Program-made: the position numbers and the translations under genes | In this document: positions 11,909 through 59,371 of the stretch, piece after piece | Numbering within the stretch: position 1 is the stretch's first letter | How the letters are laid out: each line of letters starts with the position of its first letter | DNA from: Daejeonella sp. JGW-45 | GTDB lineage: Bacteria > Bacteroidota > Bacteroidia > Sphingobacteriales > Sphingobacteriaceae | Assembly (NCBI RefSeq): GCF_029360805.1 | Contig: NZ_JARKNC010000010.1 | Location: 124,001-188,000, forward strand | DNA: 64,000 nucleotides | Direction: 5' to 3' | Notes under the pieces: generated by a model | Told to the model about the DNA's origin: nothing | The model's input: only the letters and a program-made list of their open reading frames with translations | The model's database searches: none

Positions 11909-14413
11909 ATGACTCCGGGCCAGCAGATAATTTCAGATTGGTTTGCTGCGAAGCAGTGGCAGCAATTTCCTTTCCAGAAGGAAATGGAGAAGACCTTTCT
12001 TAAAGGCTATTCAGGTCTGCTGAATGCGCCAACCGGCAGCGGTAAAACCTTTGCGATGTTCCTGCCCTTTATATCAGACTATATCAACAAGCATCCGTAT
12101 GATTATAAGGACCGAAAAAATAACGGCCTGCAGTTGCTGTGGATCACGCCTCTCAGGGCGCTTACCAACGATATCCGCAAAGCGATGCAATCGGTAGTGG
12201 ATGACCTTGGTCTGCCATGGAAGGTAGGAAGCCGCACAGGTGACACCTCGGCAAAGGAAAAACAGGAATTACGAAAAAAACAGCCGGAAATATTGCTGAC
12301 TACGCCTGAAAGCCTGCATCTGATGATCGCTCAGAAAGAATATCCTAAGCTGTTTGAGAATCTTCAGGCTGTTGTTATTGACGAGTGGCATGAACTTCTG
12401 GGGAGTAAGCGGGGTGTGCAGGTGGAACTCGGTTTATCCCGTTTGAAAAATCTTAATTTTCCCGGAAAGCCGAAGTTGAAGATATGGGGAATATCAGCAA
12501 CTATTGGCAACCTGGAACAAGCTGCCGAGGTTCTTCTCGGTAACGCTTTCGATCCCGGTCAGGTCCGGCTTGTCCGTGCGAAACAGGACAAAAAAATAAT
12601 TATCGAATCGGTCATACCCGCGAATATTGAGGAGTTTTCCTGGGCGGGTCATCTGGGTATCAAATTGCTCCCCCAGGTAATGGAGATCGTGGCAAACAGT
12701 AAAACGACCCTGATTTTTACAAACACACGGTCACAATCCGAGATCTGGTATATGGCTATCCTTGATAAGTATCCTGAATATGCCGGCGTTATGGCTATGC
12801 ACCACGGCTCGCTCGACAATGAACTCCGTAACTGGGTAGAAAATGCACTGCATAATGAGATGCTACGGCTGGTTGTGTGCACCTCGAGTTTGGATCTCGG
12901 TGTTGATTTTCGTCCGGTTGATTCCGTTGTGCAGATCGGCAGTCCTAAGGGTGTCGCCCGTTTTATGCAGCGGGCCGGAAGGAGCGGGCATCATCCGGGC
13001 GCTACATCGAAAGCCTGGTTTGTTCCAACACACTCTCTCGAATTACTTGAGGGGGCAGCGCTGAAGCAGGCTATAGCAGATGATGTTTTCGAAAGCCGGG
13101 ACCCAATACTCTTAGCTATGGATGTACTCATGCAGTATCTGGTAACTCTGGCGGTTTCTGATGGTTTTAAACCCCATGAGGTATTCAGGGAAATCAAAAC
13201 GACCTATTGCTATGCCGATATGGAAGCCAGGGATTTTGGCCAGATGCTGGACTTTATAACCAAAGGCGGAAAAACCTTGTCGGCATATGACGAGTTTCTG
13301 AAGGTGGAGATCGAAAATGGCGTCTATAAGGTAAACAGCCGGAAAGTTGCCATGAGACACCGCTTGAGTATGGGTACGATCGTAGGAGATGTGAGTATAA
13401 GGATACGCTTCTTAAGCGGCGGCTATCTTGGATCAATAGAAGAGTATTTTATCACCAAGTTAAAAATCGGGGACACCTTTTGGTTTGCCGGAAGGAGCCT
13501 GGAACTTGTCAAGATTAAGGACATGACCGCTTTTGTACGCAAGTCGTCAAAGAAAAAGGGTATAATACCTAGCTGGATGGGTGGCCGGATGCCCCTTTCA
13601 TCACAGCTGTCTGCAAAACTAAGGGAGAAGCTGAATGAAGTCGGCATCCTTATAAATAAGGGCATGGAGGGTAGAATGAAAACATCCAGAGGTCTGGACG
13701 TCGAGGTTAAAGCTCTCAAGCCCCTGTTTGAACTGCAGGCCAAATTATCCCGCGTTCCCTTAAGCTCTGAATTTTTGATCGAGAAGTTCCATTCGCGGGA
13801 CGGATATCATTTATTCTTTTACCCCTTTGAAGGGCGACTGGTGCACGAAGGGATGGCTTCGCTCTTTGCCTATAGGATATCTCAGATCAGGCGCGCAAAT
13901 TTCTCCATCGCCATGAATGATTATGGCTTTGAATTGCTTACCGACGACAGGATCTTGCTGGAAGAGGCGCTCGCAAATGGCCTTTTTTCTATCGACAACC
14001 TGCTTGAGGACATACAAAGGAGCCTTAATGCTAACGAAATGGCTCGCCGCCGGTTCAGGGACATAGCACATATTGCAGGTCTGGTATTTACTGGTTTCCC
14101 GGGTAAGGCTATGAAAAGCAAACACTTGCAAGCATCAACTTCATTGCTGTTTGAAGTTTTTAATGAATATGAAAGTGATAATGTCCTGGTCCGGCAAGCT
14201 TACCATGAAGCCATGCAGTTCCAGTTGGAAGAATTCCGGCTTCGGGCAGCGCTGCAGCGAATTCAAACCTTGAAAGTTGTCATTACAGAAAGCAAGCGCC
14301 CCACCCCCTTTGCTTTTCCAATTCTTGTAGATAGCCTGGGCCGGGAAAAGCTGATCACTGAAACACTCGAAGAAAGAGTCGCTAAAATGACCCTTATGTA
14401 CAATAAAGATTAA
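11909..14413 (+). CDS. Ligase-associated-type DEXH-box helicase (Lhr family)
   Basis: Superfamily 2 helicase, 834 aa, similar to the helicase of the bacterial ATP-dependent-ligase DNA repair cassette (the family usually named ligase-associated DNA damage response DEXH box helicase). Walker A is PTGSGKT near residues 41-47, motif II is DEWH (in VVIDEWHELLG), motif III is SATIG, and motif VI is QRAGRSGH. The Lhr-core winged-helix and C-terminal DUF4326-like beta region follow. The usual companions (ATP-dependent ligase, exonuclease-like MBL protein, metallophosphatase) are not on either side: upstream is prc with a terminator, downstream is a repeat array and a peptidase. It may therefore work with a ligase encoded elsewhere, or alone. 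Confidence 0.9.
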   Translation: MTPGQQIISDWFAAKQWQQFPFQKEMEKTFLKGYSGLLNAPTGSGKTFAMFLPFISDYINKHPYDYKDRKNNGLQLLWITPLRALTNDIRKAMQSVVDDLGLPWKVGSRTGDTSAKEKQELRKKQPEILLTTPESLHLMIAQKEYPKLFENLQAVVIDEWHELLGSKRGVQVELGLSRLKNLNFPGKPKLKIWGISATIGNLEQAAEVLLGNAFDPGQVRLVRAKQDKKIIIESVIPANIEEFSWAGHLGIKLLPQVMEIVANSKTTLIFTNTRSQSEIWYMAILDKYPEYAGVMAMHHGSLDNELRNWVENALHNEMLRLVVCTSSLDLGVDFRPVDSVVQIGSPKGVARFMQRAGRSGHHPGATSKAWFVPTHSLELLEGAALKQAIADDVFESRDPILLAMDVLMQYLVTLAVSDGFKPHEVFREIKTTYCYADMEARDFGQMLDFITKGGKTLSAYDEFLKVEIENGVYKVNSRKVAMRHRLSMGTIVGDVSIRIRFLSGGYLGSIEEYFITKLKIGDTFWFAGRSLELVKIKDMTAFVRKSSKKKGIIPSWMGGRMPLSSQLSAKLREKLNEVGILINKGMEGRMKTSRGLDVEVKALKPLFELQAKLSRVPLSSEFLIEKFHSRDGYHLFFYPFEGRLVHEGMASLFAYRISQIRRANFSIAMNDYGFELLTDDRILLEEALANGLFSIDNLLEDIQRSLNANEMARRRFRDIAHIAGLVFTGFPGKAMKSKHLQASTSLLFEVFNEYESDNVLVRQAYHEAMQFQLEEFRLRAALQRIQTLKVVITESKRPTPFAFPILVDSLGREKLITETLEERVAKMTLMYNKD

Positions 14414-14519
14414 GTCTCTTTTTCGTCGCCGATAATATTCATCATCCTGTTAATCATTGAGGTTTAGAAATCTGCCACTACTTTGTTCTTGCTACCTGAA
14501 AGGTAGGCAGATCTTTTCT

Positions 14520-14615
14520 ACCGAAACGCAGACTAAACCCGTAGTAAACGTGGACTAAACGCGGACTAAACCCGGATATATCCCTGCTTACTACGAGTTT
14601 AACACGGGTTTATAA
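14520..14615. repeat. 11-bp-phased tandem repeat in two inverted blocks
   Basis: Left block: four exact-register 11-mers at 14531 (GACTAAACCCG), 14542 (TAGTAAACGTG), 14553 (GACTAAACGCG) and 14564 (GACTAAACCCG), plus a weaker fifth at 14520. Centre: GATATATC, a perfect palindrome, at 14575-14582. Right block: three units in the opposite orientation at 14583, 14594 and 14605 (their complements read TAGTAAGCAGG, TGTTAAACTCG, TTATAAACCCG). The 11-bp register is maintained throughout, with only the 8-base centre between the blocks. It lies 3' of the helicase gene. Confidence 0.9.
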
Positions 14616-14746
14616 AGACATTATTTCAGGTTTTATATTGAAGCTTCCAGGGCGTTAATCAGCTATGATGCAAATCGATTTCAGGCTGCGTAACGGCCAA
14701 TGGTCAATCTTCCGCTCAACACGTTACAAAATATCCCTCAAATTTT

Positions 14747-14754
14747 TACATTTG
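14747..14754 (+). promoter_or_regulatory. Candidate -7 box (TACATTTG) for the M13 peptidase gene
   Basis: Perfect TAnnTTTG match 19 bases before the ATG at 14773, giving a short leader. No good -33 match. Confidence 0.45.
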
Positions 14755-14772: not shown

Positions 14773-16818
14773 ATGAAAATTAAACCGGTCTTATTATTCT
14801 CTGCCGGGGCATTAGCTTTTGCTTCCTGCAACACTGATAAGAAATCTGAAAATGATGTGCCTGTAAGGACCATCTTTTTTGAAAAGTCAGGCATGGACAC
14901 AACCATCAGCCCGGGCGAGAACTTTTTTCTTTACGCTAACGGCCAGTGGATGAAAGAAACTGATATTCCAGGCGACCAGACAGGCTGGGGTTCTTTTTAT
15001 ACGCTTTATGAGGATAATCAGAAGAATTTAAGAGAAATAATCGAAGATGCCATTCAGGAAGACAACGCAAAAGGCTCTGCCGGGCAGAAGGTGGCCGACT
15101 TGTATGCCAGTGGAATGGATACAGTGGCTATTGAAAAATTAGGTTACGACCCGGTCAAGCCCTTACTTGAAAAGATCGATGCTGTACAGGATTACAAGCA
15201 ACTGGTAAATCTCTCGGCTGATGGTTATAAAGATGGTGATGGCTTCCTGTTCGGTATCTACGTTGGTCCCGATGATAGGATCAGCACGAAAAATGCTGTA
15301 AATTTTAACCAGGCGAGTTTGAACCTTCCTAACCGGGATTATTATTTTAATGCTGATTCTGCCACGGTGAACATCCGTAAGGAATATTTGAAATACATTA
15401 CGAAATTGTTTACCCTGACAGGTATAGATGCTTCGACCGCCTCGAAAAACGCAGAAGCTATCCTGAATCTCGAAACGTTGATCGCAGCATCCCATTCTAC
15501 TCCTGTAGAACTCCGTGATCCAGTGCGGAATTATAACAAGTACGCTGTGGCTGATTTGCAGAAGGAACTGCCAGATATGAACGTTCGGGATATTTTAGAC
15601 AGAATGCTTATCAAAACCGATACCGTCCTGGTGGGACAGCCGAAGTATTATAAGACCTTAAACGATCTCCTCAAGAACCAGCCGATCGATGTGTGGAAGG
15701 CAAAGTTAAAATTTAAAGCCATAAGTGATGCGGCACCCGCACTGAGTAAAAGCTTCCGTGATGCACGGTTCGAGTTTTATGGAAAAACCCTTAGCGGACA
15801 AAAAATCCAGACAGAGCGCTGGAAAAAGATGGTTGAGACAGTGGACGGCGGTCTCGGTGAGCTATTGGGGCAGTTGTATACCCAAAAATATTTTAAGCCG
15901 GAAGCTAAGGAGCGGATGCTCTCGCTGGTAAATAACCTGCAAAAGGTTTATAAATCCAGAATAGAGAAGCTGGACTGGATGAGCAACGAAACAAAGCAGC
16001 GTGCGCTTGCTAAACTGGATGCATTTACTAAAAAGATCGGTTATCCGGATACGTGGAAAAAATATGATGATGTAAGTATTGATAGAGGAGATTATTATAA
16101 AAACCTGCAATCTATTGCCCAACACGATTATAAAGAAATGGTTGCAAAGATGGGCAAACCGGTCGATAAAACGGAATGGGGTATGACCCCTCCGACTGTG
16201 AACGCTTATTACAATCCAAGTTTCAACGAAATTGTGTTTCCTGCCGGGATTTTGCAGTTTCCTTTCTTTGATTTTGGAGCAGACGATGCCATCAACTATG
16301 GGGCTATTGGAGCAGTGATCGGTCATGAGATGACACACGGCTTTGATGATCAGGGCCGGCAGTACGATAAGGATGGAAATCTTAAAGACTGGTGGACACC
16401 CGCTGATGCAAAACTGTTTACAGCAAAGGCAAATGTAGTTGTCGACCAGTACAATAAGTTTACGGTGCTGGATAATCAAAGGGTTAACGGCAGTCTGACG
16501 CTAGGGGAAAACCTCGCGGATATTGGTGGTGTGGCCATCGCTTACGAGGCGTTTAAATTAACTGAGCAGGGTAAGGGCGATGAGAAGATAGATGGATTTT
16601 CACCTGATCAGCGGTTCTTTTTGTCGTATGCGCAAGTCTGGAGAATTAAAAACAGGGATGAAACCCTGAGAATGCGTATTCAGGTAGACCCTCACTCACC
16701 AGAGATGTTCAGGGTAAATGGTCCTCTGTCAAACATGCCGGAGTTCTATAGGGCCTTTGATGTAAAACCTGGTGACAAGATGTATAAGGCCGAGAGTGAG
16801 CGGGTGAAGGTCTGGTAA
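14773..16818 (+). CDS. M13 family metallopeptidase lipoprotein (PepO/neprilysin-like)
   Basis: Zinc endopeptidase, 681 aa, full length for the family. A lipoprotein signal ends in FASC (Cys19), so it is membrane-anchored outside the cytoplasm. The N-terminal M13_N domain runs to about residue 430; the catalytic domain contains HEMTH (518-522), the third zinc ligand Glu579 in GENLADIGG, and the asparagine-rich NAYYNPSFNEIVFPAGI substrate-binding stretch. It ends in the family-typical short C-terminal tryptophan (VKVW). Likely role is degradation of short peptides in the periplasm. Convergent with the EEP gene, whose stop is only five bases away. Confidence 0.95.
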   Translation: MKIKPVLLFSAGALAFASCNTDKKSENDVPVRTIFFEKSGMDTTISPGENFFLYANGQWMKETDIPGDQTGWGSFYTLYEDNQKNLREIIEDAIQEDNAKGSAGQKVADLYASGMDTVAIEKLGYDPVKPLLEKIDAVQDYKQLVNLSADGYKDGDGFLFGIYVGPDDRISTKNAVNFNQASLNLPNRDYYFNADSATVNIRKEYLKYITKLFTLTGIDASTASKNAEAILNLETLIAASHSTPVELRDPVRNYNKYAVADLQKELPDMNVRDILDRMLIKTDTVLVGQPKYYKTLNDLLKNQPIDVWKAKLKFKAISDAAPALSKSFRDARFEFYGKTLSGQKIQTERWKKMVETVDGGLGELLGQLYTQKYFKPEAKERMLSLVNNLQKVYKSRIEKLDWMSNETKQRALAKLDAFTKKIGYPDTWKKYDDVSIDRGDYYKNLQSIAQHDYKEMVAKMGKPVDKTEWGMTPPTVNAYYNPSFNEIVFPAGILQFPFFDFGADDAINYGAIGAVIGHEMTHGFDDQGRQYDKDGNLKDWWTPADAKLFTAKANVVVDQYNKFTVLDNQRVNGSLTLGENLADIGGVAIAYEAFKLTEQGKGDEKIDGFSPDQRFFLSYAQVWRIKNRDETLRMRIQVDPHSPEMFRVNGPLSNMPEFYRAFDVKPGDKMYKAESERVKVW

Positions 16819-59239: not shown

Positions 59240-59371
59240 ATGAGCTATGAGCCATCAGCTTCTGGCGGATCTTCTATTGGATTTACTGCAGTCTATCATT
59301 TTATTGAACTGGAAAATTAGCTCACAGCCCACAGCCCACAGCTCATAGCCCACAGCTCATAGCTCACAGCC
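59240..59371. repeat. 7-bp-phased repeat in two inverted blocks, running into a stop codon
   Basis: Left block: ATGAGCT (59240), ATGAGCC (59247), ATCAGCT (59254). Right block: seven contiguous units from 59319, AGCTCAC, AGCCCAC, AGCCCAC, AGCTCAT, AGCCCAC, AGCTCAT, AGCTCAC, then AGCC. The blocks are mutually inverted with 58 unrelated bases between them. The stop codon of the sulfatase gene (59364-59366) lies in the seventh unit. Confidence 0.92.

Follow-up and report, generated by a model that had tools for sequence, protein, structure and literature searches.

The window analyzed here is a stretch of 64,000 nucleotides from the genome of Daejeonella sp. JGW-45. It contains an array of short units in an 11-bp register, located between a helicase gene and a peptidase gene. 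The features of the locus, in positions of the window, are the following:

11909..14413, forward strand: Lhr-type helicase gene (context, outside the element)
14505..14511, forward strand: AGGCAGA motif, read from the sequences; it is likewise present to the left of arrays C7 and C9 in this genome (class A, see below)
14520..14530, forward strand: weak outermost direct unit with a GAAAC core at 14523-14527
14531..14573, forward strand: four direct 11-bp units, from their TAAAC cores and the lag-11 score
14574..14583, no strand: dyad centre GGATATATCC, 10 bp, central in the C7 and C9 arrays as well
14584..14615, reverse strand: three inverted 11-bp units, mirrored about 14578.5
14773..16818, forward strand: M13 peptidase gene (context, outside the element)

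The direct units carry TAAAC cores at 14534, 14545, 14556 and 14567, the inverted units GCTTA at 14586 and GTTTA at 14597 and 14608, with 11-bp steps in both arms. The direct cores at 14567, 14556 and 14545 pair with the inverted ones at 14586, 14597 and 14608, respectively, about a single axis at 14578.5, which is the centre of the palindrome. A self-match at lag 11 over 14524-14612 scores 26, a value that 40 dinucleotide shuffles of the whole 64-kb window never reached at this lag (maximum 18). The best score of the array at other lags from 5 to 33 is 7, except for lag 22 (17) and lag 33 (16). This confirms a preliminary description of the locus, which reported at least seven units in an 11-bp register with the TAAAC core kept in six of them (four direct and two inverted). 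The palindrome is present where it had been placed; its full length, however, is 10 bp, and the 8 bp given earlier are the inner part. Over the whole window and lags 6 to 60, the sole periodicity scoring above the array is a 7-bp repeat at 59319; this tandem repeat (AGCTCAC/AGCCCAC, 59319-59370) is the strongest other periodicity of the window. The hairpin potential of the array is unremarkable (z = -0.83 for the DNA fold, with 36 of 200 shuffles equally good), so that the symmetry lies at the level of the units and not in a strong stem. A hairpin or cruciform as the function of the array was rejected for this reason, and a known RNA family was rejected because the window has no Rfam match at gathering scores.

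Upstream of the peptidase gene, TTAC-N19-TACATTTG at 14724-14754 was read by eye as a promoter-like site. The array had been noted between the two neighboring genes, and its conservation in front of M13 peptidase genes of relatives had been raised as a point to check. The three closest M13 orthologues (57–68% identity; genomes G004, G013 and G014), however, have no array within 700 bp upstream (lag-11 scores of 8, 5 and 7 versus 26) and no adjoining helicase frame within the stretch read, and no genome of the genus was found with helicase and M13 peptidase genes side by side. Since all three orthologues lack both the array and a neighboring helicase, the array is not tied to the M13 peptidase, and the proposed link to either neighbor is not upheld.

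The sequence TAAACNCGNNNTAAAC has seven matches in the Daejeonella genome (G000), confined to three places: the window, C7:71650 and C9:573043. We refer to the unit type of these three arrays as class A. The C9 array is followed by a gene for a 209-residue DUF6266 protein (PF19781, E = 1.7e-21), which starts at 573190; the last match of the CGGA triple pattern (see below) ends at 573085. The C7 copy keeps the array, with one unit fewer than C9 in the alignment, and a C9-like leader up to the start codon (alignment score of 139 against C9), and has no DUF6266 frame (best tblastn E = 3.0; no profile hit). The window array has no DUF6266 gene directly downstream, and the window gives no DUF6266 profile hit. 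An alignment of the C9 leader with the window was not above shuffles (121 of 300 equally good), and the window tail goes undetected by a profile built from the tails of class-A orphans. We read the three loci as a series from the full unit (C9) through loss of the gene (C7) to the array alone (window). The window array belongs to the C9 class as an orphan: it has the 10- to 11-bp step, the dyad and the mirrored units of DUF6266-associated arrays, and its unit also stands before a DUF6266 gene of the same genome. It is probably a relic that was left after loss of a DUF6266 gene. A scan with TAAACNCGGACTAAAC gave 98 stretches, 17 of which were read; seven contained arrays (L026, L034, L036, L045, L066, L100 and L111) and ten did not, and the remaining 81, unread, were taken for chance matches.

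The C9 protein matches only PF19781, with no PHROG and no NCBIfam hit over the cut-off. For DUF6266 we found no match to a DNA-binding family and no solved relative, and a structure prediction from two sequences had a mean pLDDT of 44. A phage or plasmid origin of DUF6266 was rejected, as the C9 protein is unmatched in phage and plasmid records and the alignment has no match in viral contigs. Plasmid and phage iterons go with a replication protein gene and a replicon; the contig with the array measures 965 kb in a genome of 4.1 Mb. In the open-access literature, outside of which most subscription journals lie, we found no publication on DUF6266/PF19781 or on 11-bp intergenic direct repeats in Bacteroidetes.

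In 20 genomes of the genus there are 39 DUF6266 genes, distributed over seven genomes. The upstream DNA of 38 of them (L168 was left out because no start was found) was scored by its best ungapped self-match at lags 7–24 against shuffles, and a score reached by at most 2 of 100 shuffles was regarded as significant. This holds for 29 of the 30 first or single genes, at lag 11 in 21 cases, lag 22 in two, lag 10 in five and lag 7 in one. A significant array with a 10-, 11- or 22-bp step thus precedes 28 of 30 first or single genes versus none of the eight second genes of tandem pairs (L148/L167, L149/L197, L155/L196, L152/L156, L010/L013, L150/L169, L151/L163 and L154/L199), two of which were significant, both at lag 7. 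Seven of 100 other upstream regions used as a control were significant, and the only one at lag 10, 11, 20, 21 or 22 was the window array itself. This cleaner control replaced a first set of 180 regions, which held array loci and in which 27 regions were significant (12 at lag 11). In 12 of 29 genes, a loose promoter pattern (uncontrolled) starts 50–55 bp upstream of the start codon; it lies behind the array where examined.

In the sample from the whole family, 39 of 66 DUF6266 genes were significant (lag 11 in 13, lag 10 in 14 and lag 20/21 in six), that is, 33 at lag 10, 11, 20 or 21 and six at other lags, with 27 not significant; since these genes were picked among the best Pfam scores, usually one per genome, they are not a random sample. 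Outside the family, 5 of 17 genes passed at no more than 4 of 200 shuffles (lag 11 in four, lag 10 in one; L218 was left out as no start was found, and L216, below the cut-off, was not taken). Arrays preceding DUF6266 genes are built from a few direct units with an 11-bp, sometimes 10-bp, step, to which many add a dyad centre and mirrored units. The one-turn register with a dyad noted for the window is a design that recurs at many loci. Two copies in G000 have peculiarities of their own. In L014 (G000:C4:432609) the start and the main frame disagree (frameshifted), and the array is still periodic (lag-11 score of 14). L013, the second gene of a pair, has masked bases (N) upstream, beyond about 330 bp from the start.

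The units themselves were compared for 18 of 28 arrays, those with a lag-11 score of at least 14. Adjacent units inside one array are 68% identical (107 pairs). The consensus units of arrays belonging to proteins more than 80% identical agree at 74% of positions (7 pairs), those belonging to proteins less than 40% identical at 51% (112 pairs), and random 11-mers at 52%. The units in front of diverged DUF6266 genes are thus as unlike each other as random 11-mers, and since no consensus is shared across the arrays (0.51 versus 0.52), a single shared regulator of the OmpR type, as considered in the preliminary description, is unlikely; a separate regulator of class A is still compatible with these data. 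Upstream similarity tracks the similarity of the DUF6266 proteins (Mantel rho = 0.41, 0 of 500 permutations, L014 and L200 left out), a correlation expected from common descent alone. More telling are L011 in G000 and L157 in G019, two DUF6266 genes with 64% identity that both stand behind the gene of ribosomal protein L20 (Pfam). Their units differ, GGATAAAAGCC in G000 versus GGATCAAACAG/GGATCAAGTAG in G019, and each is repeated throughout its own array. The units of each array changed together in a turnover of whole units.

Arrays without a DUF6266 gene are not confined to class A. The pattern CGGA-N7-CGGA-N7-CGGA has 29 matches in G000, six in G018, four in G009 and one in G003. It also has one match in each of three genus genomes without DUF6266; two of these single matches fall inside long open frames, and that of G011 sits where such a frame ends. 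The reversed control has four matches across all 20 genomes. Two of the loci matched in G000 (L253 and L256) are coding. The other 15 loci read are intergenic arrays (a 100-codon frame covers L255) with no DUF6266 by profile. We refer to orphans with the unit CGGAACTGTCC, of which nine were read in G000, G018 and G009, as class B. No class-B array was seen at the seven DUF6266 genes of G000, although class-B orphans occur there, so that a cognate in the same genome is not always present. The sequence TTTTCGTTTAACGAAA has six exact matches in the 20 genomes, five beside class-B orphans and one without an array. GGCAGA, a shorter form of the motif left of the window array, stands left of several orphan arrays in relatives. 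Two further loci, L254 (G000:C1:619) and L259 (C2:922), have long 11-bp arrays of the unit GCGGACNTCAA following GTTCTAAG/TTCCTAAACCG units, with no DUF6266 beside them. DNA curvature by phased A-tracts was rejected as a common function; it would suit class A only, as A-tracts are absent from the class-B units by our reading.

G000 and G018 share two class-B orphans, each located between the same neighboring genes in both genomes. The 40-column core windows of these two pairs are 75–88% identical, the rest of the array 57–75% and most windows outside 0–57%; exceptional outside windows reach 62–82%, at gene ends and flanking boxes among others. A class-A orphan pair (G009/G006) has 78–100% identity over array and tail and 55–75% in the adjoining DNA, and is weaker evidence because identity is again 88–92% further left. 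As read from the alignment, L034 and L036, orthologues of class A, differ in the mirrored arm by whole-unit shifts and not by compensating bases. Because the design recurs and the cores of orthologous orphans are more conserved than most of their flanks, the array with its one-turn register is probably selected rather than debris.

DUF6266 occurs in 134 of 301 sampled family genomes, with at least ten matches in 21 of them. At least three CGGA-N7-CGGA-N7-CGGA matches were found in 49 of the 134 genomes with DUF6266 versus 5 of the 167 without (Fisher p = 7e-15, phylogeny ignored). The totals are 434 versus 61 matches for the pattern and 70 versus 48 for the reversed control. At least one match is present in 34 genomes without DUF6266, at least three in five of these, and one genome has 13. 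The reversed control itself (AGGC-N7 repeats) has 30 matches in G354 and nine in G346, both with DUF6266, pointing to further dispersed arrays with a different unit.

Two family genomes are particularly rich in arrays: G344 with 32 matches at 15 loci (units like CGGACATTGTT) and G519 with 63 matches at 34 loci (units like CGGACCTTCTT), with no control match in either. We read 20 of these loci, all 15 of G344 and five of G519. Open frames of at least 120 codons overlap none of them. The nearest frames of at least 100 codons are convergent at five loci, divergent at six, tandem at eight and unclear at one, so there is no promoter-like bias among the 20. Only L401 in G344 precedes a DUF6266 gene (profile E = 9e-60), and its array has the unit of the 14 G344 orphans; the other 19 loci gave no hit. 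Among the genus proteins, that of L401 is nearest to L164 (40%), which has a similar unit, though by a small margin. TTTCGTTTAACGAAA, the left box of class-B orphans in another genus, stands about 221 bp left of the centre of the L401 array.

L401, the DUF6266 copy, was left out of the tests for boxes and target duplications. A box, TTTCNTTTTAGTTAAA, is found 154–188 bp left of the centre at all 14 G344 orphans and, inverted, on the right in 13 of 14, as scored with a profile trained on the same orphans. The spacers between boxes and array have diverged, whereas boxes and array are conserved. Elsewhere the right box was found at one of five G519 loci and none of seven class-A orphans; the G344 flanking box was not found at the window array. 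Class-B orphans gave the left box in one of nine and the right box in four of nine cases, but since they score higher on the opposite strand, their boxes are at best related to that of G344.

Based on the recurrent design we propose the following mode of action. Each unit of an array would bind one protomer of an oligomeric DNA-binding protein. With one protomer per unit at a one-turn step, the protomers would stack along one face of the DNA to either side of the dyad. A repeat that is read once per turn, in both directions from a dyad and with a varying number of units, fits an oligomer stacking on DNA, and the window array is most likely a dyad-symmetric platform for such an oligomer. The position of arrays just before DUF6266 genes suggests that they may control the DUF6266 promoter. 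The gene-specific unit points to a reader inherited together with the gene. The simplest candidate would be DUF6266 itself, acting by autoregulation; alternatively, it could be a factor inherited along with DUF6266. An orphan array could then still serve the same reader, or it could be a relic after gene loss. For the joint reading, that the window holds an orphaned copy of the array found before DUF6266 genes and that oligomer protomers bind its units, one per turn, we estimate a probability of roughly 55%.

The strongest alternative, though still an unlikely one, is a REP/RAYT-like system in which a cognate product (DUF6266 or a partner) dispersed the repeats through the genome, with orphans outlasting the loss of the gene. 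The lineage-specific units at 15 loci in G344 and 34 in G519, intergenic in the 20 read, would be explained in this way, as would the shared unit of L401 and the 14 orphans and the orphans without a cognate gene; a switch of units at orthologous genes is described for REP/RAYT as well, in the passages considered here (PMC3686654). We found, however, no target duplications beside the boxes of the 14 G344 orphans (274 of 500 permutations equally good), the diverged spacers between conserved boxes and array are unlike recent mobile copies, and the C9 protein has no transposase family. Neutral debris from slippage of tandem repeats, clearly less probable, would account for a copy number that varies by whole units, as between C7 and C9, and for a window copy without leader or gene. 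Slippage does not create mirrored units with one dyad axis, and neither the conservation of class-B cores above most flanking DNA nor the return of the step, in unrelated units, at first DUF6266 genes and its absence at second ones would be expected from it; for the array family as a whole, debris is already disfavored.

A slightly lower probability still is assigned to chromosome-organizing or centromere-like sites at many loci, comparable to the parC iterons of plasmid R1. The 10- to 11-bp step, the repeats upstream of a gene and a unit diverging between families are shared with ParR/parC, as far as the passages considered extend (PMC9426499), and the 20 loci read are intergenic without orientation bias, but five neighboring genes include no ParM or ParR by Pfam and many relatives have no pattern matches. 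A role of the arrays as transcribed, structured RNA is improbable. Several class-B orphans fold strongly (no shuffle control) and have a promoter-like TTTG-N19/20-TATTTTCG left of the array (by our reading); the ordinary fold of the window, computed as DNA, the missing Rfam match and the whole-unit shifts between L034 and L036 argue against it. An OmpR/PhoB-type response-regulator operator acting on the M13 peptidase is very improbable: arrays of 11-nt direct repeat units are known for PhoP, in the part of the source drawn on (PMC7866108), but the array is absent at all three M13 orthologues and units differ between arrays of one genome.

We return to the oligomer platform associated with DUF6266. 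On a wider view, and at slightly less than even odds, the arrays could belong to an undescribed cognate repeat system of Bacteroidota, with DUF6266 genes behind their own arrays, lineage-specific arrays elsewhere, a shared and diverging recognition, and gene and unit coevolving by concerted switches; the window would be one orphan of this system. If DUF6266 recognizes the arrays, its family would provide numerous natural protein–operator pairs that differ in specificity, in which the coevolution of DNA recognition could be studied, and an unstudied family would gain a possible function. The conserved intergenic sites of this class in these genomes would be accounted for by the orphan arrays.

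In REP/RAYT systems the cognate gene encodes a Y1 HUH transposase. The C9 protein matches only PF19781, and by membership the array system is not REP/RAYT, though dispersed repeat copies are present and the spread and unit switching are alike. REP sequences with cognate RAYT genes are described, in the passages used, as dispersed, with orphans after gene loss and a switch of the unit between orthologous genes (PMC3686654). The arrays resemble them in being a class of repeats linked to one gene, with scattered copies, with orphans that remain once the gene is lost and with the unit switch. Unlike the short palindrome of REP as described there, they are built of phased 11-bp units around a dyad and were seen upstream of the gene, and no transposase family or target-site trace was found with them.

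By membership the array is not parC either, given that neither parM nor parR is among the five neighboring genes (Pfam), despite the 11-bp iterons of plasmid R1 parC that are bound by ParR (PMC9426499). According to the same passages, the two have in common units of 10–11 bp upstream of a gene that diverge between families. Mirrored halves and orphan copies, with no ParM/ParR found beside them, distinguish the arrays described here. The PHO boxes of PhoP are likewise 11-nt direct repeat units in tandem, but with one consensus and, in the part of the source considered, no dyad described (PMC7866108), whereas the present arrays have varying units and a dyad. BldC, a solved case of an oligomer stacking along DNA, binds cooperatively to a variable number of direct repeats, with about one protomer per turn on a long site, as stated in the passages drawn on (PMC5859096, PMC11963761). 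The arrays resemble its sites in their one-turn direct repeats and variable unit number. BldC is, in these passages, one regulator with one consensus, whereas in the DUF6266-associated arrays the unit differs from locus to locus.
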